From: Myxococcales bacterium
Lineage (GTDB): Bacteria > Myxococcota_A > Polyangia > Polyangiales > Polyangiaceae
Assembly (NCBI GenBank): GCA_025351875.1
Contig: JANXVA010000708.1
Coordinates: 1 to 34,151 of the forward strand
Direction of reading: 5' to 3'
DNA: 34,151 nt
The position numbers and the translations under genes are program-made. A model generated the notes under the pieces. That model searched no databases. It worked only from the letters and a program-made list of their open reading frames with translations, and was not told the DNA's origin. Shown piece by piece: positions 8,585-29,689 of the stretch (positions within the stretch are counted from its first letter, which is position 1; each line of letters opens with the position of its first letter).

Positions 8585-10474
<1,890 letters not shown>

Positions 10475-10562
10475 GGAACGAACGGTAACGCGCCCGCCCC
10501 GCGAGGTCGACCGTCACCGTCGCCTGTTGCATTTCGACGTTCCGCGGCGCGACTATCCGCCC

Positions 10563-11492
10563 ATGCGAGCGCTCGTCACCGGAGGCGCAGGCTTCATCGG
10601 CTCACATCTTTGTCACCGGCTGCTCGAGCTCGGCCACGAGGTCGTCGTCCTCGACAACTTCTTCTCCGGATCGCGGGCGAATCTGCGGGCGATCGCCGAG
10701 CACGTTCGCATCGTCGAAGGGGACGTGCGAGACCTGGCCACGGTCGAGGTATGCGCGGCAGGGTGCGAGGTCGTCTTCCACGAGGCCGCGATCGTCAGCG
10801 TGCCGTTCAGCGTCGAACGCCCGCAGGAGTCGCACGACGTCAACATCCAGGGCACGCTCAACGTCCTCCAGGCGGCCCGAAGAGCCGGGACGAAGCGCCT
10901 CGTCTTCGCTTCGTCGGCGGCGATCTACGGGGAGGAGCCGACCCTGCCGAAGTCCGAGGGGATGCGCCCCGAGCCGATGTCTCCGTACGGCGTCGAGAAG
11001 ATCACGGGCGAGCACTACCTCGCGACGTGGAGCCGCCTGTTCGGCCTGGAGACCGTCGCGCTCCGCTACTTCAACGTGTTCGGTCCGCGGCAGGACCCGA
11101 AGTCCGCCTATTCCGGTGTGATCAGCATCTTCGTCGACCGGATCCTCGGCGGCCGACCGATCACGTTCTTCGGTGACGGATCGCAGTGTCGCGACTTCGT
11201 CTACGTCGCCAACGTGATCGACGCGAACATCCTCGCCGCCACGCGGGACGGCGTGTCCGGTCGCGCGTTCAACGTCGCGTGCGGCAAGCGCACCACGCTG
11301 CTCGAGCTCGCGACGCTCATCGAGCGCGCCGCCGGCGTCACCGTGGCCCGGTCGTTCACCGACGCTCGCGCAGGCGACATCAAGGACTCGCTCGCCGACA
11401 TCGCTCGCGCCGCCCGCGACCTCGGCTACGCGCCGGGGGTCGGCGTCGAGGAGGGCCTGAAGCGCCTCGTCGACCATGTCCGCACGGCGTGA
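10563..11492 (+). CDS. NAD-dependent UDP-sugar 4-epimerase (UDP-GlcNAc epimerase type)
   Basis: A 309-residue extended short-chain dehydrogenase. It shows the Rossmann motif GGAGFIG (7-13), Asp31 in VVVLDNFFSGS (binding NAD), the catalytic SSAAIYG serine region (117-123) and the YGVEK pair (Tyr142, Lys146). The family interconverts C4 epimers such as UDP-Glc/UDP-Gal or UDP-GlcNAc/UDP-GalNAc. The next gene is a UDP-HexNAc 6-dehydrogenase, as in WbpP/WbpO and TviC/TviB pairs, which favours a UDP-GlcNAc/GalNAc(A) substrate. The ATG at 10563 puts the Rossmann motif at the usual place; the in-frame extension to 10473 would overlap glmS. A 150-base gap separates it from the dehydrogenase gene. Confidence 0.9.
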   Translation: MRALVTGGAGFIGSHLCHRLLELGHEVVVLDNFFSGSRANLRAIAEHVRIVEGDVRDLATVEVCAAGCEVVFHEAAIVSVPFSVERPQESHDVNIQGTLNVLQAARRAGTKRLVFASSAAIYGEEPTLPKSEGMRPEPMSPYGVEKITGEHYLATWSRLFGLETVALRYFNVFGPRQDPKSAYSGVISIFVDRILGGRPITFFGDGSQCRDFVYVANVIDANILAATRDGVSGRAFNVACGKRTTLLELATLIERAAGVTVARSFTDARAGDIKDSLADIARAARDLGYAPGVGVEEGLKRLVDHVRTA

Positions 11493-11642
11493 GCGCGTCG
11501 CTGTGGGTCGCAGGTTCGAAGCGCGATCCGCTCTGTGCCCGTGCCCGATCTCCCTCTCGGACACCCTCAAGGCCCGCGAGAGTCATTTTCCGGCGCCTCC
11601 GACGGTATGTCCGCGCCGGTCGTTCGTGATATTCCCGAAGCA

Positions 11643-12917
11643 ATGACCGAGAACATCGCCGTCATGGGCCTCGGATACGTTGGCCTCCCCGTCGCGCTCG
11701 CGTTCGCCAAGAAGTTCAATACGGTGGGCTTCGACATCGACGCCGCCAAGGTGAAGGAGCTGGTGGGCGGGTACGATCGCAACCACGAGGTCCCCGAAGA
11801 CGTCCTGAAGGGGACGGCGCTCAAGATGACGAGCGACACCGCGGATCTCGCCAAGGTGACGTTCTGGGTCATCGCCGTCCCCACGCCCGTCGACGAGAAC
11901 AACGTGCCCGATCTCTCGCCGGTCGTCCGTGCGTCGGAGACGGTCGGCAAGCACCTGAAGAAGGGTGACGTCGTCGTCTACGAGTCCACCGTCTACCCCG
12001 GGGTCACGGAGGACATCTGCGGTCCCGTCCTCACGAAGGTCTCGGGCCTCGCGCGCTCCGACTTCAAGCTCGGATACTCGCCCGAGCGCATCAACCCCGG
12101 CGACAAGGAGCACACGCTCGAGCGCATCATCAAGGTGGTCTCCGGCGAGGATGCCGCGACCCTCGAGCGCGTCGCCTCGACCTACGGCGCCATCATCGAG
12201 GCCGGCGTCCACCGTGCGCCCTCGATCAAGGTCGCCGAGGCGGCCAAGGTCATCGAGAACACGCAGCGCGACATCAACATCGCCCTCATGAACGAGCTCT
12301 CGCTCATCTTCGACCGCATCGGCGTCCGCACTGCAGACGTGCTCGCCGCGGCCGGGACCAAGTGGAATTTTCTCAAGTTCCGCCCGGGCCTCGTCGGCGG
12401 TCACTGCATCGGCGTCGACCCGTACTACCTCACCACGATGGCCCAGCGCGTCGGCTACCACTCCGAGGTCATCCTCGCGGGCCGGCGCATCAACGACAAC
12501 ATGGGCCGCTACGTCGCGCAGCGCATGGTGAAGCAGCTCGTGAACGCGAACGTGCCCGTGAAGGGCGCGCGCGTCGGCGTCCTCGGCCTCACCTTCAAGG
12601 AAGACGTCAACGACATCCGCAACAGCAAGGTGCCGACGATCATCCACGAGCTCCGCGAGTTCGGCGTGCAGGTCCTGATCCACGATCCCCAGGCCAACGC
12701 CAAGGAGACACGCCACGAGTATGGTCTCGAGCTGAATGAGCTCGAGGAGTTCCGCGCGCTCGACGGCCTCATCCTCGCGGTCAGCCACAAGCAGTACCTC
12801 GAGATGGGCGCCGAGAAGATCGTCGCGACGCTGCGCGACGGAGGCGTCTTCATGGACGTGAAGAGCGCCTTCGAGCCCGCGCAGGTCGGCGACCGCGTCC
12901 GTTACTGGAGCCTCTAG
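11643..12917 (+). CDS. UDP-N-acetyl-hexosamine 6-dehydrogenase (WbpO/TviB type)
   Basis: A 424-residue nucleotide-sugar dehydrogenase that oxidises C6 of UDP-GalNAc or UDP-GlcNAc to the uronic acid using two NAD. Visible landmarks are GLGYVGLP (9-16), AVPTPVDENNVPDL (78-91), ESTVYPGVTED (114-124), the SPERINPGDKEHT substrate loop (146-158), the catalytic-cysteine motif VGGHCIGVDPYYL (Cys255) and GLTFKEDVNDIRNS in the C-terminal domain. The GGHCIGVDPYYL form separates the UDP-HexNAc enzymes from UDP-glucose dehydrogenases, which read GFGGxCxPKD. The ATG at 11643 directly precedes the Rossmann strand. The TAG is two bases before the acyl-CoA-dehydrogenase-like ATG, so the downstream aminoacyl-carrier-protein operon is probably on the same transcript. 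Confidence 0.94.
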   Translation: MTENIAVMGLGYVGLPVALAFAKKFNTVGFDIDAAKVKELVGGYDRNHEVPEDVLKGTALKMTSDTADLAKVTFWVIAVPTPVDENNVPDLSPVVRASETVGKHLKKGDVVVYESTVYPGVTEDICGPVLTKVSGLARSDFKLGYSPERINPGDKEHTLERIIKVVSGEDAATLERVASTYGAIIEAGVHRAPSIKVAEAAKVIENTQRDINIALMNELSLIFDRIGVRTADVLAAAGTKWNFLKFRPGLVGGHCIGVDPYYLTTMAQRVGYHSEVILAGRRINDNMGRYVAQRMVKQLVNANVPVKGARVGVLGLTFKEDVNDIRNSKVPTIIHELREFGVQVLIHDPQANAKETRHEYGLELNELEEFRALDGLILAVSHKQYLEMGAEKIVATLRDGGVFMDVKSAFEPAQVGDRVRYWSL

Positions 12918-12919
12918 AG

Positions 12920-14095
12920 ATGTACACCCCGACCCACAAGACCAGCCCGCTCGTCGCGAAGACGCACTCGATTGCCCGCGAGATCGCGGCGGCCCACGCT
13001 TCGGATGTCGACGTCCGCGCGCGTTTTCCCGAGGAGACGATCGACGCGCTGAAGCAGGCCAAGCTGATGTCGGTCGGCGTGCCGAAGGAGCTCGGCGGCG
13101 AGGGCGCCAACCTGCAAGAGCTCACGGCGATGTGCTTCACGCTCGGGCAGTGCTGCGGGTCGAGCGCGATGGTGTTCGCGATGCACCTGATCCAGGTGGC
13201 CTGCGTCGTGCGCCATGGGCAGAACGACAAGTACTTCGAGGGCTACCTGCGCGAGATCGTCGACAAGCAGCTCTTGCTCGGGTCGATCACCTCCGAGGTC
13301 GGCGTCTGGGGCGATACGCGAACGTCCCTCTGCGCGGTGTCCTGCAAGGACGGCCGCTTCACGCTCGACAAGGACGCCAGCGTCGCGTCGTACGCCGTCC
13401 AGGCCGACGACATCCTCGTCACCTGCCGCCGCAACGCGGAGGCCGCCCCGAGCGACCAGGTGCTCGTGCTCGTCCGCAGGAAGGACCGTACGCTCACGCA
13501 GACGACGACCTGGGACACGCTCGGCATGCGCGGCACGTGCAGCCCCGGCTTCAAGCTCGCCTCTTCGGGGCCCCAGGAGCAGATCCTCCCGAGCCCCTAC
13601 GCCGACGCGTCCGCGCAGACGATGGTCTCGTATTCGCACATCCTCTGGGGCGGTCTCTGGCTCGGGATCGCGTTCGATGCGGTCGCGCGCGCCTCGGCGT
13701 TCGTCCGCGCCGAGGCCCGCAAGACGCCCGGCGTGGTCCCGGTCAAGGCGTCGCACCTCGCGCGGCTCTCGGTGAAGCTGCAGTCGATGCGCAACGACGT
13801 CCAGGCGCTCGCCACCGAGTTCGACCGCATCACCGCGACGCCGAACGGCATGGAGGAGCTCCTCACCATCGGATGGGCGCTCCGGATGAACAACCTGAAG
13901 GTCGCCGCCTCCGAAGCCGCGCACGCCATCGTCCACGACGCGCTCCAGATCATCGGCATCAGCGCCTACAAGAACGACTCGAAGCTCTCGGTCGGCCGCC
14001 ACTACCGCGATGCGCTCTCGGCCTCGCTCATGATCTCGAACGACCGCATCTTCTCGAAGACGGCATCCTTGCTGCTCGTCTACAAGGACGAGTGA
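12920..14095 (+). CDS. acyl-CoA dehydrogenase-like flavoprotein of an aminoacyl-carrier-protein operon
   Basis: A 391-residue acyl-CoA dehydrogenase-fold protein. The N-terminal helical domain has PEETIDALKQAKLMSVGVPK and ELGGEGANLQEL. The middle domain has LLLGSITSEVGVWGDTRTS (the flavin-contacting strand) and DTLGMRGTCSPGFKL. The C-terminal helical bundle ends LVYKDE. In classical family members a catalytic Glu lies in a YEGT motif near the C-terminus. Here the matching place, after GRHYRDALSA, reads SLMISND, so the usual base appears absent. The next two genes are an amino acid:carrier protein ligase and a DUF1839 protein. I therefore infer that its substrate is an aminoacyl- or acyl-carrier protein rather than a beta-oxidation CoA ester, by analogy with prolyl-carrier-protein oxidases. 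The gene is followed by a 5-base gap to the ligase. Confidence 0.85.
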   Translation: MYTPTHKTSPLVAKTHSIAREIAAAHASDVDVRARFPEETIDALKQAKLMSVGVPKELGGEGANLQELTAMCFTLGQCCGSSAMVFAMHLIQVACVVRHGQNDKYFEGYLREIVDKQLLLGSITSEVGVWGDTRTSLCAVSCKDGRFTLDKDASVASYAVQADDILVTCRRNAEAAPSDQVLVLVRRKDRTLTQTTTWDTLGMRGTCSPGFKLASSGPQEQILPSPYADASAQTMVSYSHILWGGLWLGIAFDAVARASAFVRAEARKTPGVVPVKASHLARLSVKLQSMRNDVQALATEFDRITATPNGMEELLTIGWALRMNNLKVAASEAAHAIVHDALQIIGISAYKNDSKLSVGRHYRDALSASLMISNDRIFSKTASLLLVYKDE

Positions 14096-14100
14096 CAGCG

Positions 14101-15018
14101 ATGCGTGAAGACCGCGAGTACGGCGCCGATAGCTTCTACAAGGGGCTCGTCGAGCACGGCCTCATCGTGCCGACGCGCGTGCCGGGCTCCTTCGGCCGCA
14201 ACGCCGTCTTCGAGGACGTGCTCGCGCGCTTCGACGGGCTCATCAACGAGCTCGCGAAGAACGACGCGGCCGAGCTCTTCGTCTTTCCCCCGGTGATCGA
14301 TCGCACGATCATCGAGAAGACGGGCTACCTCGACTCGTTCCCGAACCTCGCGGGGACCGTCTTCAGCTTCTTCGGCAACGAGCGCGAGGCCAAGGCGCTC
14401 TCGGCGAAGGTCGGCGAGGGTCAGCCCTGGGCCGATACGCAGGGCATGACGGAGGTCTGCCTCAACCCGGCGGCCTGCTACCCGATCTACCCGACGATGA
14501 CCGGAACGCTCCCCGAGAACGGGCGGCTCATCACGATGTTCCAGTGGGTCTATCGGCACGAGCCGTCGCTGGAGCCGACGCGCATGCAGTCTTTCCGCGT
14601 GCGCGAGTTCGTCCGCGCGGGCTCGCCCGATGCGGTCGTGGCGTGGCGCGACATGTGGCTGCAGCGCGGCGTCGAGCTCCTCGCGTCGCTCGGGCTGCCC
14701 GCCAAGCCCGACGTCGCGGCCGACCCGTTCTTCGGTCGCACGGGGAAGATGCTCGCGAACGCCCAGATCGACCAGAAGCTGAAGTTCGAGGTGCTGATCC
14801 CGGTGATCTCGCTGGAGAAGCCGACCGCGTGCTGCTCCTTCAACTACCACCAGGATAAATTCGGCGAGGTGTTCGGCATCCGCACCGCCGACGACCAGGT
14901 AGCGCACACGGCGTGCCTCGGCTTCGGGCTCGAGCGCTGCGTGATGGCGCTGTTCAAGACGCACGGCTTTCGCCCGGCGGAGTGGCCAAGCGGCGTGCGC
15001 GCGCGGCTGTGGCCGTGA
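14101..15018 (+). CDS. amino acid--[acyl-carrier-protein] ligase (seryl-tRNA synthetase-like)
   Basis: A 305-residue class II aminoacyl-tRNA-synthetase relative without a tRNA-binding domain. Known homologues in Bradyrhizobium activate small amino acids with ATP and load them on the phosphopantetheine of a dedicated carrier protein. Seen here are a motif 2 region FQWVYRHEPSLEPTRMQSFR, the phrase CCSFNYHQDKFGEVFGI (244-260) and a motif 3 ACLGFGLERCVMALF (271-285). Cys126 (AACYPIYP), Glu154 (YRHE) and Cys272 match in order the Cys-Glu-Cys zinc site of the atypical SerRS and carrier-protein-ligase group, so the site looks intact. Its length is far below that of a true SerRS. It is co-transcribed with the flavoprotein and overlaps the DUF1839 start (GTGA). 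The probable partner carrier protein is at 21528-21770 on the other strand. Confidence 0.92.
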   Translation: MREDREYGADSFYKGLVEHGLIVPTRVPGSFGRNAVFEDVLARFDGLINELAKNDAAELFVFPPVIDRTIIEKTGYLDSFPNLAGTVFSFFGNEREAKALSAKVGEGQPWADTQGMTEVCLNPAACYPIYPTMTGTLPENGRLITMFQWVYRHEPSLEPTRMQSFRVREFVRAGSPDAVVAWRDMWLQRGVELLASLGLPAKPDVAADPFFGRTGKMLANAQIDQKLKFEVLIPVISLEKPTACCSFNYHQDKFGEVFGIRTADDQVAHTACLGFGLERCVMALFKTHGFRPAEWPSGVRARLWP

Positions 15019-15983
15019 GCCGGTTCACCTCGCTCGCGCTCGACGCGGCGACCTACCAGCGCCACCCGCTGCACGCCGAGGATCGCGTGTGGGTCGAGAA
15101 GAACTGCTACGTCGACGTGTGGATCGAGCTGATCCACGCGCTCGGTTGCGAGCCGCTCGCCATGCTCCCGTTCGTCGCGGCGATCGACTTCGAGGGAGAC
15201 CAGTGGACGTTCTTCAAGCCGAAACACGACGAGCTCTTCGAGCTCTACGGCATCGACGTCCAGGAGCTCAACGTGTGGCGCACGCTCACAGAGCACGTCC
15301 AGGTCCACGTGGGCGCCGGGAAGATGATCGCGACCGAGGCCGACGCCTTCTACCTGCCCGACACGGCGGGCACCGACTACCAGCGGCAACACACGAAATC
15401 GACGATCATCATCAGCGACTTCGACCTCGAGAACCGGCGCCTCGGGTACTTTCACAACGCGGGGTACTACGCGCTGGAAGGCGCCGACTTCGAGCAGCTG
15501 TTTCGCGTGGCTGCTCCACCCGATCCCACGTTCATGCCGTTCTTCGCCGAGGTCGTGCGCGTCGATCGCCTCGCGAAACGCACCGGCGACGAGCTACGCA
15601 CGATCTCCCGCGCTCTGCTCGCGAAGCACGTCGCGCGCCGCCCGGCGACGAACCCGGTGGCGCGCTTCGGTGAGCACATCACCGGCGACCTGACGCGGCT
15701 CCAGGGCGAAGGACTACCCGTGTATCATGCATGGGCATTTGCCACGATCCGCCAGCTGGGCGCGGCGATGGAGCTCCTGTCGCTTCATCTCGGATGGCTC
15801 GGTGACGACAACGCGCGGGCCGCGGCTGCCGAGCTCGACAAGGTGAGCCACGCCGCCAAGGCGCTCATCCTCAAGGGCGCGCGCGCCGTCAACGGCAAGC
15901 GCTCGCTCGACGCCGCCGCGATGTTCGAGGAGATGGCGGGCGCCTGGCAGCGCGGCATGGATCTCCTCGCGAGCGTTTCGTGA
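15015..15983 (+). CDS. DUF1839 family protein
   Basis: A 322-residue protein from a GTG at 15015 that overlaps the ligase stop by four bases. I recognise it as the DUF1839 family from RHPLHAEDRVWVEKNCYVDV, IDFEGDQWTFFKPKHDELFE and YLPDTAGTDYQRQHTKSTII, followed by RRLGYFHNAGYYALEGADF. The function is unknown. Homologues occur beside amino acid:carrier protein ligases, so it may act on the aminoacyl-carrier protein, possibly transferring or condensing the aminoacyl group. The combination of conserved Tyr, His and Asp near FHNAGYY and TAGTDYQRQH could form an active site, but that is speculation. It has no signal peptide or membrane helix, so it should be cytosolic. The last third (about 225-322) is helical, ending EMAGAWQRGMDLL. 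Confidence 0.82.
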   Translation: MSRFTSLALDAATYQRHPLHAEDRVWVEKNCYVDVWIELIHALGCEPLAMLPFVAAIDFEGDQWTFFKPKHDELFELYGIDVQELNVWRTLTEHVQVHVGAGKMIATEADAFYLPDTAGTDYQRQHTKSTIIISDFDLENRRLGYFHNAGYYALEGADFEQLFRVAAPPDPTFMPFFAEVVRVDRLAKRTGDELRTISRALLAKHVARRPATNPVARFGEHITGDLTRLQGEGLPVYHAWAFATIRQLGAAMELLSLHLGWLGDDNARAAAAELDKVSHAAKALILKGARAVNGKRSLDAAAMFEEMAGAWQRGMDLLASVS

Positions 15984-16624
15984 TCGCGACGGGGGCGCTC
16001 GAGCACGGGCAGGTGAGGCTCGTGCCGCTCTCGCTCGATCACGTCGGTGCGCTGGCGGAGGCTGCCTGCGCCGATCGCTCGACCTTCGATCTCGCGCCGG
16101 TTCCGCGCGATCGCGACGCGACGGTTCGTTACGTGGAGCGCGCGCTGGCCGATCACGAGGCCAAGCGTGCCGTCCCTTTCGCGGTGCTTCATGCCGGCAA
16201 GGTCGTGGGCTCGTACCGGCTCATGTCCCTCGAGTGGTGGACGTGGCCGGAGGGGCCGGTAGAGGTCAGCGGTGACCCTCGCAGCGTCGAGCGCGATCCG
16301 CCGGACGTCGCCGAGATCGGCCACGCCTGGCTGACGCCCGCCGCCCAGCGTACCGCCGTGAACACGACCGTCGCGTACCTCCTCATGCGTCATGCCTTCG
16401 ACGCCTGGCGCGTCCACCGCCTCGTCCTCAAGACCGACGCGCGCAACACCCGCTCGCGGAGCGCCATCACGAGGCTCGGCGGCAAGCTCGAAGGCGTGCT
16501 GCGCTCGCATCAACCGGCCGCTGACGGGATCGTGCGCGACACCGCGATGTTCGCGATCGTGGCCGCCGAGTGGCCCGAGGTGCGCGCGCGGCTCGAGGCG
16601 GCGCTCGCCTCCACGCACCCATGA
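15980..16624 (+). CDS. GNAT-family N-acetyltransferase (RimJ/RimL-like)
   Basis: A 214-residue protein from a GTG at 15980, overlapping the DUF1839 stop by four bases. It shows the GNAT pattern of the RimJ/RimL type: VRLVPLSLDHVGALAEAACA at the start, VVGSYRLMSLEWW in the middle and EIGHAWLTPAAQRTAVNTTV (motif A region). It continues AFDAWRVHRLVLKTDARNTR and ITRLGGKLEGVLRSH. Such enzymes transfer an acyl group from acetyl-CoA, or in some cases an aminoacyl group from another donor, to an amine. In this operon it could acylate the amino acid product or use the carrier-bound aminoacyl group; neither can be decided from sequence. A housekeeping acetyltransferase captured in the operon is the simplest alternative. 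Confidence 0.87.
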   Translation: MIATGALEHGQVRLVPLSLDHVGALAEAACADRSTFDLAPVPRDRDATVRYVERALADHEAKRAVPFAVLHAGKVVGSYRLMSLEWWTWPEGPVEVSGDPRSVERDPPDVAEIGHAWLTPAAQRTAVNTTVAYLLMRHAFDAWRVHRLVLKTDARNTRSRSAITRLGGKLEGVLRSHQPAADGIVRDTAMFAIVAAEWPEVRARLEAALASTHP

Positions 16625-17331
16625 AGGAAGAGGAGCTCGAGATCGCGGGGCTGCGCGTCGTCTCGGTCGGCGAGCCTGAACTCGCCGAGCAGGTCGTGGT
16701 GCTCCTCCACGGCTTTGCGATGACGCCGCGCGATCTCTCACCGTTCGCGCACTCGCTCCGGGCTCCCGCGTGGTTCCTCTTCCCCGACGGGCCGCTCGCC
16801 GCCGAGCCCTCCGGCCGAGCATGGTGGCACATCGACGCGAAGCTGCGCGACGCGGCGCTCCTCCAGGGCCCGCGCGATTTTGCGGTGCAGCATCCCCCGG
16901 ATCTACCGGCGGCGCGCGCCCAGCTGGTCGCGCTCGTCACGGCGCTTTCGCCGCGTGTGGGGACGAGGCCGCTCATCCTCGGGGGCTTCTCGCAAGGCGC
17001 GATGCTCACGTGTGACACCGTGCTGCGCTCGTCGTTCGATCTGTCGGCGATGGTACTGCTCTCCGGCTCGCGTATCGCCTTCGACGAATGGGAGCCGCTC
17101 CTGCCGAACGGGCGCCTCGATCGCCTACCGACGCTCGTGGCCCACGGCAGCGCGGACGCCGATCTCGCGTTCGCCGCCGGCACCGCGCTTCGCGATTGCC
17201 TCGTCGCCTCCGGGGCCGACGTCACCTGGCAGCCGTTCGAGCAAGGCCACGAGATCCCGCTCGTCGTCTGGCGCACCCTGAAAAAATTCCTCGCGAACGT
17301 TCCGCGAGCGCGGCCGTTCCGATCTCCATGA
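16621..17331 (+). CDS. phospholipase/carboxylesterase-type alpha/beta hydrolase
   Basis: A 236-residue serine hydrolase of the small carboxylesterase/phospholipase family. The fold begins VVVLLHGFAMTPRDL (oxyanion region about 29-31), the nucleophile elbow is GGFSQGAML (Ser124), the acid is Asp179 in AHGSADAD and the histidine is His210 in EQGHEIPL, so the triad looks complete. There is no signal peptide, which points to a cytosolic enzyme. The ATG overlaps the GNAT stop by four bases (ATGA). Because the operon makes an aminoacyl thioester, this protein may be the thioesterase that releases or edits it. That is inference from context; a general esterase is equally compatible with the sequence. 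Confidence 0.88.
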   Translation: MKEEELEIAGLRVVSVGEPELAEQVVVLLHGFAMTPRDLSPFAHSLRAPAWFLFPDGPLAAEPSGRAWWHIDAKLRDAALLQGPRDFAVQHPPDLPAARAQLVALVTALSPRVGTRPLILGGFSQGAMLTCDTVLRSSFDLSAMVLLSGSRIAFDEWEPLLPNGRLDRLPTLVAHGSADADLAFAAGTALRDCLVASGADVTWQPFEQGHEIPLVVWRTLKKFLANVPRARPFRSP

Positions 17332-19313
17332 CCAGGTCCATCCTCGACGCGAGCGTTGCTGCCGTTCGTCGGTTTTCCCCGGCCGAACAGCATGCGGCGC
17401 TGCAGCTTCCGCTCAACGGCCGGCTCCAGCTCCGCGCCAAGCTCGCTCCTGCGCTCGCCGACGTGTCGACGCCCGACAAGCTCCTCGCGGCGATGGAATC
17501 GAACGACGTGGTCGCGCGCTCCTTGTCGCTGGTCGTCTTGGCCGAGCTCGATCCCGTCCTCGCCGAGACGCTCCTTCTCGAGGCGGTCGCCGCGCTGCAG
17601 CACGAGCAGCGTGAGCGCGTCGTGAAGGTGCTGAGCGAGCTTCCGGAGGAGCACGCGCTGTCGATGGCGCGCTACTACGAGCTCGACGCCAGCGACGTGG
17701 CGACGGCGGCGCGCGGCGTCGCGAGCCGCTTCACGCCTGCGCTCTACAACACGTTCCACGCCATCACAGCGGCGATGGCGGACCCGACCGAAGCGCAGCG
17801 GCTCATGACGGAGCTCATGCCGCCACGGGACGTCGCGCTCCCCGCGGAGCTCGCGTCGGAGGGTCTGCTCGAAGACGTGAGCCTTCGCGCCATGCCGCTC
17901 GCCGCGTTTGTCGCGCTCGTGAGGGCCAACACGGTCCCCTGGCCGGCGACCGCGAAATACGCACGACGGCCGGATCTCGTCACGCCGCCGCAGAAGATCG
18001 CGCTGCTCACGCAGATCATGGATGACGTGGCGGGGGTCCACCTCGAGGACTTGATCAAGTGGTTGATCGACGGGCTCGCGAAGACGAAGGCCAAGGAGGC
18101 CAAGGAGGCCGATGCGCTGTTCGCGAAGATCCTCCGTACGCACCCGGCGCTCGATCGCGGGACCGCTGCCGTCATGGCGCTGCACGGGCGCAAGGGCCCG
18201 GTCGCGAGGGGCGCGCTCGTCGAGCGCATCGAGGCGTCCTCGGTCGCCGAGCCGACCGCGCGCGATCTGCGCCTTGCGTGGCTCGCCGCGGCGGCCGTCG
18301 TGAGCTCGGATCCGAACGACGTCGACGCGCTGGCGCGCTTTCTCACGCCCGAGGCTGCTCGTACGCCGGTCGGTCGCGCCGTCGGAGAGGGCGCGGTCCT
18401 GACGCTCGCGGGCTTGCCGTTGAAGAAGTGGGACGCCTCGGCCGAGCGGTGGGGAGCGCTCGCGGTCGTCTTGCTGCGGGGGCCGCTCGACGATGGTGCG
18501 CGCCGGGTGCTCAACAAGCTACCCGCACCGTCGTTGACGGAGCTGCTCTCGGGTCTCATGAAGCCGGCCGCGCGAGCGGTGACGGTGCCGGAGTCGCCGC
18601 GATGGCTCGAGCGGTACGACGCCGGCGAGCACGACGCGGTGTGGCGCGAGATGCGCGAAGCGGGCGCGGCGGTCTTCACGATCGACGAAGCAGCCGCCGT
18701 CGCGACGCGCACGATGGATCGCGTGAAGAAGGAGATCGCACGCATCGTCACGATCTTGAAGGACGACGGCTACCTCTTCGGCCTCGAGAGTCCGGTCGGA
18801 GCTCCGGAGAAGACGCGCGTCAAGGATCTCGCCGCGATCGAGAAATCGATCGGCCGCGCGCTGCCGCTGTCCTTTCGCGCGTTTCATCTCGCGATGGGCA
18901 CGGTCGATCTCTCGACCGACCCGAACGCGGGATCGTCGACCACGTTTCGTGCGCTCGAGTGGCTCGACCCGCTGCAGGTCGCGCCCCTCTCGGTGACGCG
19001 TGACCTCGCGGCGAGAGAGGTCACGCGCCTGAAGAAGGCGTGGGTAGAGGCGCTTCGTTTGCCTCCCGATCTTTTCTTCGCGATGTCGCCCAACCGGAAG
19101 GGCCGACACGACTCCGAGGAGGACGAACCGTACATGCTCGAGGCCTTCGATCAGGGCGCGGACGGGCTCGTCCGGCAGGGCTCACGCGCGCCCGTGCACT
19201 TCGTCGACTACCTCCGCGCGACGCTCGCGAACGGCGGCTTCGCGAAGCTCGACGAGCACCCGCACGCGGCCGAGCTGCGCGAGCGTCACTCGAAGGGCCG
19301 CATCCTCTTCTGA
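17328..19313 (+). CDS. helical-repeat protein with C-terminal SMI1/KNR4 (SUKH) domain
   Basis: A 661-residue protein starting with ATG at 17328, four bases inside the previous gene. About 480 residues are Ala/Leu-rich helical pairs of HEAT-like character (LLAAMESNDVVARSLSLVVL and similar). The last 160 residues read as a SUKH domain: DLAAIEKSIGRALPLSFRAF, then LEWLDPLQV, and the closing VHFVDYLRATLANGGF. SUKH domains are common in immunity proteins of polymorphic toxin systems and also in intracellular scaffolds. No toxin gene is visible nearby, so an immunity role is unsupported. It is the last gene of the coupled operon and converges on the beta-helix lipoprotein gene with 19 bases between stops. 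Function unknown. Confidence 0.78.
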   Translation: MTRSILDASVAAVRRFSPAEQHAALQLPLNGRLQLRAKLAPALADVSTPDKLLAAMESNDVVARSLSLVVLAELDPVLAETLLLEAVAALQHEQRERVVKVLSELPEEHALSMARYYELDASDVATAARGVASRFTPALYNTFHAITAAMADPTEAQRLMTELMPPRDVALPAELASEGLLEDVSLRAMPLAAFVALVRANTVPWPATAKYARRPDLVTPPQKIALLTQIMDDVAGVHLEDLIKWLIDGLAKTKAKEAKEADALFAKILRTHPALDRGTAAVMALHGRKGPVARGALVERIEASSVAEPTARDLRLAWLAAAAVVSSDPNDVDALARFLTPEAARTPVGRAVGEGAVLTLAGLPLKKWDASAERWGALAVVLLRGPLDDGARRVLNKLPAPSLTELLSGLMKPAARAVTVPESPRWLERYDAGEHDAVWREMREAGAAVFTIDEAAAVATRTMDRVKKEIARIVTILKDDGYLFGLESPVGAPEKTRVKDLAAIEKSIGRALPLSFRAFHLAMGTVDLSTDPNAGSSTTFRALEWLDPLQVAPLSVTRDLAAREVTRLKKAWVEALRLPPDLFFAMSPNRKGRHDSEEDEPYMLEAFDQGADGLVRQGSRAPVHFVDYLRATLANGGFAKLDEHPHAAELRERHSKGRILF

Positions 19314-19332
19314 CGACGGACCTCGCGAGCGT

Positions 19333-20982
19333 TCAGCGAACGAGCGAGGCCTCGACGCTGTTGCCGTAGGCGCCGAGCTCGGTGCGGGTGCCTGCGCGAG
19401 GCGGGTTGTCGTTCGTCGCTCCCGCGGGATCGCCGATCATGAGACCAGCGCTATCGGCGCTGTCCTTGACGTACGCCGTGGGCGCCCAGTGCGCGTGCGT
19501 CGAGCGGAGGTGGAAGTCGTGGGCGTCCGGCGCGACGAAGAGCGGATCGACGCTCGCCAGGTTCCCCATCCCGAACGCGATCGCGACGCCGAGCCCGCCG
19601 CTCGCGTACGCCGTCTGCACGTCCGAGTAGCTCACGGCCACCGCGATATTTGCGCAGCCCGAGCCGCACGAGGCATTGAAATCGAGCCCCTTGGCGTTGC
19701 CCCAGAAGATCGAGTTCGTGAACGTGTAGGCGTCCTTCGCGTCGTTGTTCTTCGTGATGTCGACCCCCGGCCCCGGCGCTCCGCAGCCGACGGCGAGGGC
19801 GCGGTGGTTCGTCATGTGGTCGAACGAAGCGACCGTCGGCCCCGCGCCGTCCGGACCGCAGTCGAGGTAGATGTTGCCGCCGCAGTTGCTGTCGAAGACC
19901 TCGTGGTCGCTGATGCAGTGGGCGGAGTCGTCGCAGAAGAGCCCGCCTCCGTAGATGCCCGCGCGGTTGTCGCGATAGACGTTCCAGGAGAGCTGGGCGG
20001 TGGTCTGCTTGCCGCCGCCCGTGTCGGCGCCGACGTAGAGACCGCCGCCCCAGCCGTTGACCTTGTTTCCGGTGAACTCGTTCGCGGAGACGGTGAGCTT
20101 GTTGGCGAAGAGGTAGAAACCGCCGCCGTGGCTCGTGCCGGCCTCGCTGCCGGCGTTCGAGTCGACGAGGTTGCCCGTGATTGCGATCGTGCTCGTGTTG
20201 GTCGAGTCGTCGACCGCTCCAGCGCCGCCGCGAGAGCAGGTGTTCCTGGAGAAGACGTTGCCGCTGATCGTGCCCGAGACGTTGTTCAGGAAGAACGCGC
20301 CGCCGACGTCGCCGCCGCCCGTGCACGTGTTGTCGTGGATGAAGTCGTTCGTGATGTCGAGGCGCTGCGCGTAGAAGATGTCGCGGACGATGCCCTGCGA
20401 GTACCCCGTGATCTCGAAGCCATCGATCGCGGTCAGCTGGCCGGCGGTGGGGCCCGGATCGACGATGCGGAGGAAGGTGTCCGAGCCGTTGCCTTGCGCC
20501 TTGGTCACGTAGAGAGAGGAGTCGCGGACCGCGAAGCTCTTGCCCGTCTGGAAGCCGCCGGCCAGGGTGAAGTACTTCTCCCCCGGCGACAGGGCCTCCG
20601 CGTACGTCCCCTGAGCCACGCAGAGGATCGCGCCGCTGCTCGCGGCAGCCACGGCGGCGCCAAGCGTCTTGTGAGGCTGGGCCGCCGTTCCATCGGCGGT
20701 CCCGGCGTTTGCGCCGTCGACGAAGACGGTGCACGCGGGAATCGTGGTGGCACGCGCGACCTTCACCGCATGCGGCGCGGCTCCCGGCGGCGGTCCGACC
20801 GGCGGTGGGTCGACCGTCCCCGAGGTGCCTGAAGTGCCTGAAGTGCCCGACGTGCCCGACGTGCCCGAGGTGCCCGAGCTACCGGAGGAGCCTGACGACG
20901 AGGACGACGACGAGTCGCCGCTGCTCCCGCACGCAGCGAGGACGACAAAAGGCAGAACGACCCCGAGGAATTTCAAAGCCAC
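19333..20982 (-). CDS. beta-helix (DUF1565/pectate-lyase-like) surface lipoprotein
   Basis: A 549-residue protein with a lipoprotein signal (MALKFLGVVLPFVVLAAC, Cys18), then a long Ser/Gly and Gly-Thr-Ser linker (about 20-58), then a right-handed parallel beta-helix. The helix begins CTVFVDGANAGTADGTAAQP and KTLGAAVAAASSGAILCVAQ, which is the DUF1565 opening. It carries repeated rungs with paired Asn/Gly such as GNVFSRNTCSRGG and ANEFTGNKVNGWGGGLYVGA. It ends PLFVAPDAHDFHLRSTH and NPPRAGTRTELGAYGN, which is the usual end of the choice-of-anchor/beta-helix class. Cysteines along the chain suggest disulfides. The likely location is the outer-membrane surface, and the role may be glycan binding or adhesion. 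No catalytic residues are evident. It lies beside the polysaccharide locus. Confidence 0.86.
   Translation of the reverse strand: MALKFLGVVLPFVVLAACGSSGDSSSSSSSGSSGSSGTSGTSGTSGTSGTSGTSGTVDPPPVGPPPGAAPHAVKVARATTIPACTVFVDGANAGTADGTAAQPHKTLGAAVAAASSGAILCVAQGTYAEALSPGEKYFTLAGGFQTGKSFAVRDSSLYVTKAQGNGSDTFLRIVDPGPTAGQLTAIDGFEITGYSQGIVRDIFYAQRLDITNDFIHDNTCTGGGDVGGAFFLNNVSGTISGNVFSRNTCSRGGAGAVDDSTNTSTIAITGNLVDSNAGSEAGTSHGGGFYLFANKLTVSANEFTGNKVNGWGGGLYVGADTGGGKQTTAQLSWNVYRDNRAGIYGGGLFCDDSAHCISDHEVFDSNCGGNIYLDCGPDGAGPTVASFDHMTNHRALAVGCGAPGPGVDITKNNDAKDAYTFTNSIFWGNAKGLDFNASCGSGCANIAVAVSYSDVQTAYASGGLGVAIAFGMGNLASVDPLFVAPDAHDFHLRSTHAHWAPTAYVKDSADSAGLMIGDPAGATNDNPPRAGTRTELGAYGNSVEASLVR
20822..20884 (-). repeat. 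tandem 9-base units encoding the Gly-Thr-Ser linker
   Basis: Six clear units of nine bases (plus-strand GAGGTGCCT, GAAGTGCCT, GAAGTGCCC, GACGTGCCC twice, GAGGTGCCC) run from 20822 to 20875, with a seventh degenerate unit to 20884. They encode the Gly-Thr-Ser repeats just after the lipobox of the beta-helix protein. Confidence 0.85.
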
Positions 20983-21027
20983 CTCGAAACCGTAGCCCCG
21001 AAGCGGGGGCCTGTCGCGGGGCCTTCG

Positions 21028-21527
21028 CTAGCAGCCGACGCACGTGCAGGCGCCTTGGGCCTTGCACGTCGACGCGCACGTCGCGGCATCGGGTTGGCCC
21101 GCGGTTCCCATCGGCGCTCCGGACACCGAGGCGCACGGGTTGCTCGTACCGCAGTCCCACTCGAGCGTGCAGCCGGCGCCACCTGACGTACCCGAGCTTG
21201 CTCCGCTGCTGGCGCTCGGAGCCGTCACGACCGGGACGGGGGCACCCATGATGGCGGCACCAAGGCTCATGGGAGTCGCCGCAGCGAACGGAGCTCCCTG
21301 GCCCGTCAGGTTGCTCTTGATCTCGGCATAGGTGCTCGCGTCGTTCAGTCGGTCGAGGGAGCCTTGGGATCGCTGTAACGCCAGGTGTTGGCCGGAGGTG
21401 GATAGGCACCTCCGGGGCAAATCATCTCGCTTGCGACCGTCGTCGCTGGTTGACGTCGATCTCGAGCTCCGCGCCGTCTACCGCGAGATCTTTGGGGAGC
21501 TCGGCGATCAGGAACAGCCCCTAAGGG
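21028..21527 (-). pseudogene. frameshifted remnant of a Cys-rich exported protein
   Basis: The only long frame runs 21420 to 21028. Its last 100 residues look genuine (NDASTYAEIKSNLTGQGAPF, a Ser/Gly linker, then a Cys cluster CTLEWDCG...CASTCKAQGACTCVGC). Its first 25 residues do not, and there is no signal peptide. Just upstream two other minus-strand frames carry protein-like text. One reads EMICPGGAYPPPANTWRYSD up to a TGA at about 21345. Before it, another reads LFLIAELPKDLAVDGAELEI up to a TGA at about 21425. Joined in order through two -1 shifts they would make one exported protein. It begins directly after the carrier-protein stop. Either this is a decayed gene or only the C-terminal ORF is expressed from an unseen start. 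Confidence 0.45.
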
Positions 21528-21770
21528 TCAGCTACTCGACGTCAGCTGGGTGATCGCGTCACGCATCGACCCCATGCTCTCGAACACGCTGCGCTTGAGC
21601 ATGTGGTCGGGAAACTCGATGTCGAACTCCCCCTCGAGCGCGAGCATCACGTTGACGCTCGCATGCGAGGTCATGCCGGCCTGGTAGAGATCCCCGTCCT
21701 CCGGATAGACGGCTGCGTCCTTGTTGAGGCGGCCGTGCTCTTTGAGGATCTTCCGAATCCTGTCGATCAT
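21528..21770 (-). CDS. acyl/aminoacyl carrier protein of the amino acid:carrier protein ligase type
   Basis: An 80-residue carrier protein (MIDRIRKILKEHGRLN...). The prosthetic-group site is GMTSHASVNVML, where Ser35 would take 4'-phosphopantetheine. The usual DSL is replaced by TSH, which matches the dedicated carrier proteins charged by amino acid:[carrier protein] ligases (a G-[LM]-T-S-x-A pattern) rather than fatty-acid ACP. Helix III continues LALEGEFDIEFPDHMLKRSV. Its ATG overlaps the acpS stop by four bases, so the holo-synthase and its substrate are made together. The likely charging enzyme is the ligase at 14101-15018, about 6.5 kb away on the opposite strand. The amino acid carried is not deducible. 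Confidence 0.9.
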   Translation of the reverse strand: MIDRIRKILKEHGRLNKDAAVYPEDGDLYQAGMTSHASVNVMLALEGEFDIEFPDHMLKRSVFESMGSMRDAITQLTSSS

Positions 21771-22171
21771 GGATGTTCCCGTCGCGCTGAGATGACAACC
21801 GCAGTGGCGTAATCGCCCTCGTGACTCAAGCTGAGGGACAAGGAGGGATCCCCGGCCTCGACGGCGGCCGCGCGCGCGGCGCCGTGGAGCACGAGGCGTG
21901 GCGCCCCCGAGGGGCTGCGCGTGACCTCGATCTCTCGCCATCCGACGCCGCGCTCCGCGAGATCGAGCGCCTTCACCGTGGCCTCCTTCGCGGCGAAGCG
22001 GGCGGCGAGGCGCGCCGGCGCGAGCGCGGGCGTGGACGTCGCGTAGGCGATCTCCCCTTCGGTGAAGACCCGCCGCAAGAAGCGATCGCCAAACGTCGCC
22101 ATCGACTCCTGGATGCGGCTGAGCTGCACCAGATCGATCCCTACGCTCAGCGGCGGTGCCCCGGGCCCCAT
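21767..22171 (-). CDS. acpS: holo-[acyl-carrier-protein] synthase
   Basis: A 134-residue AcpS-type phosphopantetheinyl transferase that moves 4'-phosphopantetheine from CoA to a carrier-protein serine. Seen are the N-terminal VGIDLVQLSRIQ (Asp13, metal ligand), FLRRVFTEGEIAY and RFAAKEATVKAL (Glu63), and the late LSLSHEGDYATAVVI. The start is taken at the ATG at 22171; a GTG at 22177 is possible. Its TGA overlaps the carrier-protein ATG, which suggests that this copy serves that carrier protein. Whether it is also the cell's general AcpS cannot be told here. The gene lies 49 bases after the BY-kinase-like gene and may belong to the same minus-strand transcript as the polysaccharide genes. Confidence 0.93.
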   Translation of the reverse strand: MGPGAPPLSVGIDLVQLSRIQESMATFGDRFLRRVFTEGEIAYATSTPALAPARLAARFAAKEATVKALDLAERGVGWREIEVTRSPSGAPRLVLHGAARAAAVEAGDPSLSLSLSHEGDYATAVVISARREHP

Positions 22172-22220: not shown

Positions 22221-23261
22221 TCAAGGCCGCACCGCAGCGTCGATGAGCGCGATGCCGATGCCCCGCCCCTCGGGGATCTGGTCGGTCGCGCGCCGCAGCG
22301 CACGAGCGGTCGTGACGCCCGCGCGTACGGCCATGAGCGTCGCGTCGGCCGTGGCGATCAGCTGGGCGACGGTCGGGGACGCGGACACCGCCGCAGCGTC
22401 GATGATGATGAAGTCGTAAGGGAACCGTCGCAAGGCTCCGATGATCTGCTCGAACCATTGCTTCTCGAAGCGCGGAGCGGGCTGCCCGGGCTGAGGTACC
22501 ACCGCGGCGACGTGGAGACCGGGGGAGAGCTGGACGATCCGGTACGGGTGCAGCCAGGGCGCGTTCATCGGCCACGGAGGCGTCGACTCGGGGATGCAGA
22601 AGATCGAGGCGAGCTCGGGCTCGAGGAGGTTGCCGTCGAGCAGAAGCACCTTCGCTCGCTCCGCGAAGGAGAGCGCGAGGTTCATCGCGCACGTCGTCTT
22701 GCCGTCGTTCCTCGCGGCGCTCGACACCGCGAGCACCCGCGGCATCCGCTTCGCGAGGAGGTTGTCGCGCAGGAGGCGAAAGCTCACCGCGCGCGCCGAG
22801 TTCGGCTCGGTGATGAGGACGAGCCGAGGATCGGGCGCTCCCTGCAGCACCACGGTCGGCGGGCCGCCCATCGGCGCGGGCCCAGCAGGTTGAAAGGGCG
22901 CGCCCGTCGGCGGCATCGGCATCATGCGGCGCGGGTCGTGCCCAGGCTGCATCATCTGCATCGGGTACCCGGGCGGAGGCTGCGAGCCAGGCATGACGCC
23001 CTGCGGATTCGACTGCGGATACTGCTGGGACAGCGCGCTCGCGGGATGCGCGGGCTGGGGCGCGGGCTGGGGCGCGACGTACATGAGCGTGCTCTCACCC
23101 GCCGGCTGCTGCGTCTCCGGGTCGGGCACGTACATCTGGGTTCGCTCCGACGAAGGCGGACCTGCGGCGGGCTCCGGGCGGCCTGGGCGCGGCACCTTCA
23201 CAGGCACGTAGAGCGTCGCCTCCTCGTGCCCGCCAGGCTTTTCGCGGGAACCTCCAGCCAT
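22221..23261 (-). CDS. BY-kinase-like P-loop ATPase (CpsD/Wze-type) with proline-rich N-terminus
   Basis: A 346-residue protein. Residues 1-145 are a disordered Pro/Gln/Met-rich region with three short repeats: ATLYVP (15-20), TQMYVP (41-46) and TLMYVAP (58-64). Residues 150-346 form a MinD/CpsD-type ATPase: Walker A as SSAARNDGKTT (180-190), Walker A' as LLLDGNLLEP (206-214) and Walker B as FIIIDAAAV (284-292). Canonical tyrosine kinases read S-x-x-PGEGKST, LLIDADLR and VIIDTPP, so several positions differ, and there is no C-terminal tyrosine cluster. It sits 71 bases after the Wzc-like copolymerase and would normally be its cytoplasmic partner controlling chain length and export. Kinase activity is uncertain given the substitutions. 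Confidence 0.82.
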   Translation of the reverse strand: MAGGSREKPGGHEEATLYVPVKVPRPGRPEPAAGPPSSERTQMYVPDPETQQPAGESTLMYVAPQPAPQPAHPASALSQQYPQSNPQGVMPGSQPPPGYPMQMMQPGHDPRRMMPMPPTGAPFQPAGPAPMGGPPTVVLQGAPDPRLVLITEPNSARAVSFRLLRDNLLAKRMPRVLAVSSAARNDGKTTCAMNLALSFAERAKVLLLDGNLLEPELASIFCIPESTPPWPMNAPWLHPYRIVQLSPGLHVAAVVPQPGQPAPRFEKQWFEQIIGALRRFPYDFIIIDAAAVSASPTVAQLIATADATLMAVRAGVTTARALRRATDQIPEGRGIGIALIDAAVRP

Positions 23262-23332: not shown

Positions 23333-24844
23333 TCACCCGGTGTCGCGTCGTCGGCCTGCGGGGGCCGCCCGAGGAATGACCCCGATGACGGGCAGGATGT
23401 CGAGCATCTCCAGGTCGCCGCGCTGGTAGATGCGGTCGTCGAGGCGGGCGGAGATGAGGGCCACGACCGCAGCGAGGATCAACCCCGCGGCGAGGAACGT
23501 GGCGAGCGCCGTGGAGCGCGGCTTCGAGATCGGGTGCACCGGCAGGTATGCCGCGTCGAGGATCGAGACCTGGATGTTGCGGTCGTTCGTGTTGGCGCCA
23601 GCGTTGAGATCCGCCTTGAACAGCTTGTCGTCGAGCTGACGCTGCGCGTCCTTCAGGTACTCGACCTCGCGCTGCAGCCGCCTGAACTCGACCTCGAGGG
23701 CGACGGCCGGCGAGCCGGGGACGGCGGCGGGCGACGAGCCGTCGGGAGCGGGAGCGGGGGCGATCGCGCCGGGCGGCGGCAGCCCGGCACGACGCGCGGT
23801 GATCGAGCGGTGCAGGGTGGCGAGGCGCTGCTCCAGGGCTTCCTTGTCGGCCTCCGAGAGCCTGCCGGTCGGAGGCGCGGACGGCGGCGGAGGAACGGCG
23901 GCCTTCTTGTCGGCCTCGATCGCGAGCGCGAGGCGGCGTCGTGCGGCGACGACGTCAGGATGTTGATCCGTGAACTGTGCACGCTTCTCCGCGAGGTCCT
24001 TGCGCGCGGCGACGACCTCGGGGCCTTCGGCCGGCGCGGCCACTGGCGCAGGGGCAGAAGCTCCGCCCGACCCCGCCCTCAGCTGGCGCTCGATGTTCCG
24101 TGCCTCCGCCTCCATCTGGAAGAGGACGCGATCCTTGGTCCCGGGCGGCATGGCGGCGCCGGACGGCGGCAGAGCAACCGCGAGCCCCTTGCCGCCACCA
24201 CCGGGGAGGGTGAGGGGGAGAAACTCCGGGTGGAGCGTCAGGAAGCTCGAGAGGTTGCCGTCCGCCACGCGGAGCTTCGCCTTGTTCTGGTCGCTCTGGG
24301 CCTCGAGGTACTCCTTCGTCGCCTTGCCTTGCTCGGCGCGCCGGGAAGCGGCCTCCTGGACGATGCGCTCGCCGAGACGGCGCGTGACGTCCTGCACCTC
24401 TTTGGGGCTGAGCCCCTCGAAGCCGATCTCGAAGGTGTCGCCTTCGCGAGCCTTGAAGCTGATGTGCCCCCTCAGCTCGTCGACGGCGTCCTGCATTCCG
24501 CGGCGGTCGGCGAGGGCGGCGTAGCGAGGGAGGTCCGCGACGATCGGCTCGAGACTCGCGCGCGACAGGAGCATCTCCTTGAGTCGCGCGCCGACGCGGC
24601 GTGCGTTCTCGCCGCTGCCTTCGCCGCCGGTGAGATCGGTCGACTTGATCGTCTCCTGGTACTGAACGACCGTCTCCGATTTGTAGATCCGCGCCTTCAG
24701 GAACACGCCGGGGATCGAGGCGAGCGCCACCAGGAGGAAGACCACGGAGGAGCGCTTCCAGAACATGAAGCTCCGGCGGACGAACGTGAGGACGCCTTCG
24801 AGCGTCTCCGCGGCCGTCTTCGGCGCGTCGTCTTTCTTGCTCAT
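23333..24844 (-). CDS. Wzz/Wzc-type polysaccharide chain-length determinant (no kinase domain)
   Basis: A 503-residue inner-membrane polysaccharide copolymerase. Transmembrane helix 1 is at about 33-53 (SVVFLLVALASIPGVFLKAR), the periplasmic Wzz domain and long coiled-coil helices run about 60-430, and helix 2 is near 450-472 (ALATFLAAGLILAAVVALIS). It is preceded by the proline motif PVHPISKPRS. A Pro/Ala-rich insertion (about 270-300) and another (about 370-400) interrupt the coiled coil. The chain stops about 30 residues after helix 2, so the cytoplasmic tyrosine kinase of Wzc is not fused; the BY-kinase-like ATPase downstream supplies that module. The ATG overlaps the glycosyltransferase stop by four bases. 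The role is control of polymer length and coupling to the Wza-like exporter. Confidence 0.9.
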   Translation of the reverse strand: MSKKDDAPKTAAETLEGVLTFVRRSFMFWKRSSVVFLLVALASIPGVFLKARIYKSETVVQYQETIKSTDLTGGEGSGENARRVGARLKEMLLSRASLEPIVADLPRYAALADRRGMQDAVDELRGHISFKAREGDTFEIGFEGLSPKEVQDVTRRLGERIVQEAASRRAEQGKATKEYLEAQSDQNKAKLRVADGNLSSFLTLHPEFLPLTLPGGGGKGLAVALPPSGAAMPPGTKDRVLFQMEAEARNIERQLRAGSGGASAPAPVAAPAEGPEVVAARKDLAEKRAQFTDQHPDVVAARRRLALAIEADKKAAVPPPPSAPPTGRLSEADKEALEQRLATLHRSITARRAGLPPPGAIAPAPAPDGSSPAAVPGSPAVALEVEFRRLQREVEYLKDAQRQLDDKLFKADLNAGANTNDRNIQVSILDAAYLPVHPISKPRSTALATFLAAGLILAAVVALISARLDDRIYQRGDLEMLDILPVIGVIPRAAPAGRRRDTG

Positions 24845-26157: not shown

Positions 26158-26223
26158 ACAAACCTAGCCCACCAAGGTGCACAACACGAGCTTGCCCTGC
26201 AGATGCTATCGTGCGGCCTTCCC

Positions 26224-28774: not shown

Positions 28775-28918
28775 GTCTGCGTTTCCTCCTCGAGACCGAC
28801 AGGCAATCTTACCCTTGATCCGATCCGCTTGGGAGTCCTTCGGAACCCACGCCCGGGCCGCGTTTTGCCGCGCCACGGCGGCGGAGACAGGGGAGCGCGC
28901 TTCGCGGTACCATCAGAC

Positions 28919-29662: not shown

Positions 29663-29689
29663 GCTGTTACGCTCCAGCGGACGAGCGCC

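Follow-up and report, generated by a model that had tools for sequence, protein, structure and literature searches.

Comparison with Described Systems

The closest described relatives of the system considered here are the amino acid:[carrier protein] ligase 1 Bll0957 and the carrier protein Atu2571 (PDB entries 4h2w, 3mey and 2jq4). The stretch analyzed here, a contig of 34,151 nucleotides from a Myxococcales bacterium (GenBank assembly GCA_025351875.1, contig JANXVA010000708.1; hereafter the window), encodes members of the same ligase and carrier families. Its ligase also lacks a tRNA-binding domain, and the zinc ligands and the carrier serine are kept in the window proteins. In contrast to the Bll0957/Atu2571 system, the genes for ligase and carrier lie 6.5 kb apart on opposite strands, a gene for a TviB-like dehydrogenase lies 5' of the group, and genes for a GNAT acyltransferase and a small alpha/beta hydrolase lie 3' of the gene for a DUF1839 protein. 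Judged by the comparison with other loci and genomes, the plus-strand and minus-strand groups do belong together as one functional set. The locus is a sound member of a known, functionally unsolved cassette, and its setting hints at the product. According to an excerpt of a 2022 review, the biological role of amino acid attachment to such carriers is still unknown (PMC9437257). With nucleotide-sugar genes in operon contact, the locus points to a concrete site where the product may be sought, namely the exopolysaccharide. Moreover, the comparison revealed the usual companion genes of the ligase as well as occasional nonribosomal peptide synthetase (NRPS) or polyketide synthase (PKS) neighbors of ligase and flavoprotein.

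Three further systems are comparable. First, the note added in proof of PMC2922099 describes a cassette of a seryl-tRNA synthetase (SerRS) paralogue, an acyl carrier protein, a redox enzyme, an Atu2574-type protein, a glycosidase and liposaccharide genes, which has the same core and for which the same chemistry was proposed. The window differs in that the glycosidase gene lies on another contig and that the cassette is in operon contact with genes of a hexosaminuronic-acid type, which belong to an exopolysaccharide locus of a myxobacterium. Second, D-alanylation by DltA/DltC would be similar in that the amino acid on the carrier is meant for a surface glycan, if the model discussed below holds. 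DltA is an AMP-binding-type ligase and, unlike the window ligase, not SerRS-like; families of the DltB or DltD type did not turn up in Pfam scans of the open reading frames (ORFs) of the window. Third, exosortase A (XrtA) systems share relatives of the cassette's double hydrolase (hydr1_PEP/hydr2_PEP), and the export, chain-length and kinase genes of the window match XrtA-type models, with all of these matches being below the curated cut-offs. The exosortase model TIGR02602 had no match in the window's own genome and none above cut-off in 8/8 genomes searched, with one weak match in genome G019. Thus, membership in an XrtA/PEP-CTERM system was ruled out.

Ligase and Carrier Protein Belong to Dedicated Families

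The original prediction, made from the DNA sequence alone, had named five genes as a complete aminoacyl-carrier-protein system split between two operons. All five ORFs are open:

12920..14095, plus strand: acyl-CoA dehydrogenase-superfamily flavoprotein (Acyl-CoA_dh_N and Acyl-CoA_dh_1 above Pfam cut-offs)
14101..15018, plus strand: amino acid:[carrier protein] ligase, 305 amino acids (NF005479 above cut-off; PDB 4h2w, E 1.6e-75)
15015..15983, plus strand: DUF1839 protein, putative aminoacyltransferase (PF08893, 345 bits; C31, T/S at 129-130, H147)
21528..21770, minus strand: dedicated aminoacyl carrier protein (NF005480 above cut-off; phosphopantetheine site S35 in GMTSHASV)
21767..22171, minus strand: holo-carrier-protein synthase AcpS (PF01648, 69.7 bits; TIGR00516 above cut-off)

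The ligase scored 399.6 bits against the NCBIfam model NF005479 (amino acid--[carrier protein] ligase; cut-off 357), while SerRS models gave only 64 and 50 bits. In the PDB search, 4h2w was followed by 3mey (Bll0957; E 1.9e-72), with a type-2 SerRS far behind (6.1e-13). The SerRS-like part (query 120-302) aligned solely with the C-terminal core of SerRS, i.e., a class II core without a tRNA-binding domain, in line with the earlier description of this protein. An ordinary SerRS is encoded separately in the same genome (contig C588, 413.8 bits). By model scores rather than by a tree, together with the PDB ranking and the separate SerRS, it was ruled out that the ligase is a tRNA synthetase, and the feared grouping with these enzymes was not found. 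On the evidence of its sequence, the protein is a member of the amino acid:[carrier protein] ligase family, from which a charging activity would be expected.

The putative zinc ligands assigned by homology (C126, E169 and C272) were invariant in 13/13 aligned ligases; they align with what we take to be C131, E176 and C279 of Bll0957. The stretch GRTGKMLANAQIDQK, presumably the carrier-recognising part, was nearer to its counterpart in 4h2w than to that in 3mey in the PDB alignments, and 4h2w is the ligase crystallised with the carrier most like that of the window (4h2w_C; 2jq4 Atu2571; E ~1.6e-13).

The carrier reached 99.4 bits against NF005480 (cut-off 72), compared to at most 22.6 bits for ordinary acyl carrier models, and was the sole protein above this cut-off in its genome. 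S35 was invariant in 26/26 aligned rows. In the PDB, the aminoacyl carrier of 4h2w (1.6e-13) and Atu2571 (1.7e-13) ranked before aminoacyl carrier protein 1 of 4h2s (1.4e-4) and before chains named acyl carrier protein (0.0023 or worse). Thus, the best PDB relatives of ligase and carrier were the two partners of one complex, 4h2w. The feared grouping of the carrier with fatty-acid or NRPS carriers was not found, and a fatty-acid identity was ruled out by the model scores. A second AcpS-like piece is present in the genome at C566:3-221, where it is cut by the contig end.

The Two Gene Groups Form One Cassette

A scan of genome contigs yielded at least 587 ligase relatives, the best 80 loci of which were analyzed. 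More than 6 kb on both sides was available for 50 of these (full-flank loci), and at least two of the 80 (L037 and L046) are the same records as Myxococcota relatives. The 50 full-flank loci contained the carrier in 50, the flavoprotein in 48, the DUF1839 protein in 48, a glycosidase in 46, a double hydrolase in 41 and AcpS in 24 cases. The opposite strands of the two groups had been considered unusual, which did not hold: the carrier gene lay on the same strand as the ligase gene in 35 and on the opposite strand in 15 full-flank loci. What is unusual about the window is the distance of about 6.5 kb between both genes compared to a median of 1.26 kb, exceeded in 1/50 loci (L052, 6.9 kb).

The genes for carrier, flavoprotein, ligase and DUF1839 protein form one run in L010, L011, L012, L015 and L016. 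Genes for GNAT and AcpS lie between the cassette genes of L015, and the carrier gene of L014 is about 3.6 kb from that of the ligase. In the congener G006, C14:11743-16381 contains the genes for carrier, glycosidase and double hydrolase, whereas those for DUF1839 protein, ligase and flavoprotein are grouped at 26.7-29.8 kb. DUF1839 was found in 8/58 near genomes (own genome included) and in 1/11 other genomes of the genus (G006); therefore, the cassette is sporadic. All eight near genomes with DUF1839 possessed an NF005480 carrier above cut-off.

The phylum was sampled evenly with 188 genomes, the own genome included; ligase, carrier and DUF1839 protein exceeded the cut-offs in 5, 6 and 5 of these, respectively. 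Ligase and carrier occurred together in 5 genomes, the carrier alone in 1, the ligase alone in 0 and neither in 182 (Fisher p 3e-9, shared descent not corrected for). Three further genomes had weaker ligase-like matches and no carrier above cut-off. When 62 loci were compared, the distances of the four proteins (ligase, carrier, flavoprotein and DUF1839) were correlated, with rho at 0.60-0.81 and at most 0.18 in permutations; shared descent contributes to this correlation. Thus, adjacency in other loci, correlated protein distances and the co-occurrence check across the phylum, in which every genome with the ligase also had the carrier, bore out the proposal of one functional set. That the two groups are unrelated, with carrier and AcpS serving fatty acid or polyketide synthesis, would agree with the opposite strands and the 5.5 kb between the genes for DUF1839 protein and carrier, but is very improbable given the carrier's score above its dedicated-family cut-off, the low scores of ordinary acyl carrier models and the adjacency of the same genes elsewhere.

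Glycosidase and Double Hydrolase Are Encoded outside the Window

The word complete was too strong, since the usual family-2 glycosidase and double alpha/beta hydrolase are not in the window. The glycosidase family was present in 8/8 cassette genomes. In the own genome, its gene lies with that of a double hydrolase on contig C356, the first part of the glycosidase apparently being on C56. Pfam revealed GH2 beta-mannosidase-type side domains, and in 25 aligned rows, the glutamates in GH2-like contexts were nearly (E341) or wholly (E422) invariant; we assume that both motifs have their GH2 meaning. The C356 double hydrolase has relatives in the exosortase-A-associated hydrolases 1 and 2 (hydr1_PEP, 123.4 bits; hydr2_PEP, 95.2 bits). 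A STAS relative (58% identity) is encoded beside glycosidase and hydrolase on C356.

Flavoprotein and DUF1839 Protein

An alignment of 30 flavoprotein rows, read by eye, contained no catalytic Glu at the places of MCAD 376 or IVD 254: Ile or Val occupied the former, and no Glu occurred around the latter. Both places are those which we take to be equivalent, with the IVD place being less certain. H240 and N374 were invariant in the 30 rows. In the PDB, the single flavoprotein sequence was nearest to 5gj7/5z8t and to DnmZ, presumably an amino-sugar nitrososynthase. Because the catalytic glutamates are missing, the flavoprotein appears more likely to oxidise N or C-alpha, by N-hydroxylation or by forming an imine, than to carry out alpha,beta-dehydrogenation; the former would also be favored if the substrate is Gly, as glycine has no beta carbon.

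For DUF1839, a papain-like fold with a C-(T/S)-H site, a glycan-related context and a proposed role of the same kind are given in an excerpt of PMC10318531. C31 and H147 were present in 36/36 aligned rows, one fragmentary row (L114) having been left out. A PDB search with the single DUF1839 protein found no sequence relatives, and a search with its profile gave merely two coiled-coil chains (E 0.14 and 0.16). Papain-like enzymes are often hydrolases, and pathways that modify a substrate on its carrier and then release it are known, as in the case of prolyl-carrier dehydrogenases. Accordingly, the pathway might merely modify an amino acid, and DUF1839 might be the thioesterase that frees it. 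This is improbable, as it leaves the glycosidase, usual with 46/50 loci, unexplained.

The Cassette Lies in an Exopolysaccharide Locus

The genes around the cassette, which the original prediction did not bring up and among which is also a GlmS gene, point to nucleotide sugars and exopolysaccharide:

10473..11492, plus strand: UDP-sugar epimerase, nearest model TviC (UDP-GlcNAcA C4-epimerase; PF01370, 221 bits; NF011728, 214 bits, cut-off 760)
11535..12917, plus strand: nucleotide-sugar dehydrogenase, nearest model TviB (UDP-GlcNAc 6-dehydrogenase; TIGR03026, 374.7 bits, cut-off 189.8)
15980..16624, plus strand: GNAT acyltransferase, accessory (PF13302, 61.7 bits; overlaps the DUF1839 gene by 4 bases)
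16621..17331, plus strand: small alpha/beta hydrolase, accessory (PF02230, 48 bits on the longer ORF 16570-17331)
22221..23261, minus strand: exopolysaccharide tyrosine kinase-like ATPase, context (TIGR03018, 60.8 bits, cut-off 230.65)
23333..24745, minus strand: polysaccharide chain-length determinant-like protein, context (TIGR03007, 100 bits, cut-off 278.85)
24841..26157, minus strand: family 4 glycosyltransferase, context (PF13692 and PF00534 above cut-off)
26203..26838, plus strand: Wza-type polysaccharide export protein, context (PF02563, 79 bits)
28760..29662, plus strand: polyprenyl glycosylphosphotransferase, context (PF02397, 171 bits)

The dehydrogenase gene, whose true start is probably about 100 bases inside the listed ORF, stops 2 bases 5' of the flavoprotein gene, and the ends of the genes for DUF1839 protein, GNAT and small hydrolase overlap or touch. 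This spacing fits one operon from the dehydrogenase to the small hydrolase. In the congener G006, the same dehydrogenase neighbor (88% identity) lies 3 bases 5' of the flavoprotein gene, and kinase, chain-length, glycosyltransferase and export genes are also present in a different arrangement. The match of the dehydrogenase to the TviB model NF011729 (462.5 bits, cut-off 592) was, like that of the epimerase to TviC, below the equivalog cut-off; both are relatives only of the enzymes of the Vi-type hexosaminuronic acid pathway. Relatives of the GNAT were found in 4/80 loci (immediately 3' of DUF1839 in L036 and L037) and relatives of the small hydrolase in 13/80.

Polysaccharide genes were counted near the cassette in 3/6 loci of Myxococcota relatives, compared to 1/40 control stretches drawn from six genomes and not matched to the 80 loci (p 0.005; 2/5 and p 0.029 without the congener). 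These six are the long ones of eight fetched stretches, the short L015 and L017 having been left out. Genes for a glycosyltransferase and a GalE-type epimerase were found near the cassette of L036, which ranked first of the 80 loci by its ligase, and L039 encodes a PEP-CTERM-type response regulator above its cut-off. For the myxobacterial lineage, the glycan link is fair; as a general rule, it is unproved.

Within the exopolysaccharide locus, a partner-switch set is encoded at 26822-30426, comprising a SpoIIE-type phosphatase with FHA and GAF domains, an RsbW-like HATPase and a STAS protein.

Proposed Pathway and Alternative Products

Tentatively, and at close to an even chance, the cassette provides a small amino acid in activated and probably oxidised form, which is to be attached to a sugar of the neighboring exopolysaccharide or of its precursor. 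The amino acid would be Gly or Ala, as we assume from characterised ligases. First, AcpS, going by its family, would load phosphopantetheine onto S35 of the carrier. Second, the SerRS-like ligase would make aminoacyl-AMP and charge the carrier, as its family membership predicts. Third, the flavoprotein would act on the carrier-bound amino acid, likelier at N or C-alpha in view of the missing glutamates. Fourth, the DUF1839 protein would, as a papain-like cysteine enzyme, unload the carrier by transferring its aminoacyl group to a sugar, onto an amino or a hydroxyl group there. Finally, the glycosidase from the other contig might conceivably trim or proofread the product.

A note added in proof of 2010 proposed two such roles: amide formation with an amino sugar for the DUF1839 protein, and modification of the aminoacyl group for the redox enzyme (PMC2922099). 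The favored model was essentially printed there; the window data agree with it and add the operon contact with hexosaminuronic-acid-type genes. The narrower version, a route distinct from Dlt in which a SerRS relative activates the amino acid and a papain-like transferase puts its flavin-oxidised, carrier-bound form onto a hexosaminuronic-acid exopolysaccharide in this lineage, is rather unlikely.

Several observations weigh against the favored model. Polysaccharide genes were not significantly enriched over the 80 loci (8/80 compared to 1/40 controls, p 0.27), and the glycan link may therefore be local. The flavoprotein profile ranked true dehydrogenases (9w60, E 9.6e-26) before monooxygenases in the PDB search, which speaks against the chemistry favored for this protein. 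Of the copies in G006, the one about 50 kb away from the cassette shares 69% identity with the C356 double hydrolase, the one adjoining the carrier just 40%. Since two more paralogues occur in the own genome (C465; none in G019) and the C356 copy is closer to the non-cassette one, the part of the double hydrolase in the pathway is uncertain here. Genome G119 (L121) encodes carrier, flavoprotein, DUF1839 protein, glycosidase and hydrolase, while no match to the ligase was found there; another activating enzyme or a gap in the assembly may account for this. Finally, ligase and flavoprotein are encoded near NRPS/PKS genes and without DUF1839 in L048, L086 and genome G068 (L122), with the carrier also present in L122 and L048; the adjoining NRPS of L086 includes a formyltransferase domain and one like luciferase-type monooxygenases. 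At these three loci, the same building block may serve to make a natural product.

It is quite possible that the cassette makes a small diffusible metabolite, either peptide-like or an aminoacyl sugar, and that its polysaccharide neighborhood is accidental. The flavoprotein profile ranking and the double hydrolase paralogues make this explanation stronger and attachment to the exopolysaccharide slightly weaker, and the NRPS/PKS neighbors and the lack of enrichment over the 80 loci support it as well. Cassettes occur in many unrelated settings, e.g., directly 3' of nif genes on a Rhizobium gallicum plasmid (L019, 12536-18396), and most conserved neighbors outside the core are common to one genus only. 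A Priestia megaterium plasmid (L023, 12148-20695) carries acpS, carrier, flavoprotein and ligase genes without DUF1839 beside ATP-grasp, alanine permease and alanine racemase genes, which looks like a cluster for an alanine-derived metabolite. In addition, no obvious signal peptide was seen by eye in the glycosidase consensus. The TviB-like dehydrogenase gene in operon contact, in the window as in one congener, and the polysaccharide genes near half of the Myxococcota relatives' loci speak against a small metabolite and for the exopolysaccharide.

NRPS/PKS genes and DUF1839 were not strictly exclusive. NRPS-like matches occurred together with DUF1839 in L043, L052, L069, L076 and L010, the last of which also counts for the small metabolite, and L082, L110 and L115 had neither DUF1839 nor NRPS/PKS genes. 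NRPS/PKS genes were found in 2/5 loci without DUF1839 compared to 4/72 (p 0.046), a weak difference that was not relied on. The corallorazine paper (PMC11342130), as far as its excerpt goes, concerns another system and was set aside. According to an excerpt of PMC10888616, a table of differences between phaR and wild type under microaerobiosis includes the Bradyrhizobium genes bll0957 and bll0958.

Between the cassette groups, a 661-aa ORF (17328-19313) without a Pfam or NCBIfam match overlaps the small hydrolase gene. A lipoprotein-like ORF (19333-20982) with a Ser/Gly/Thr repeat near its start sits between the operon and the carrier gene and has a relative in the congener G006.

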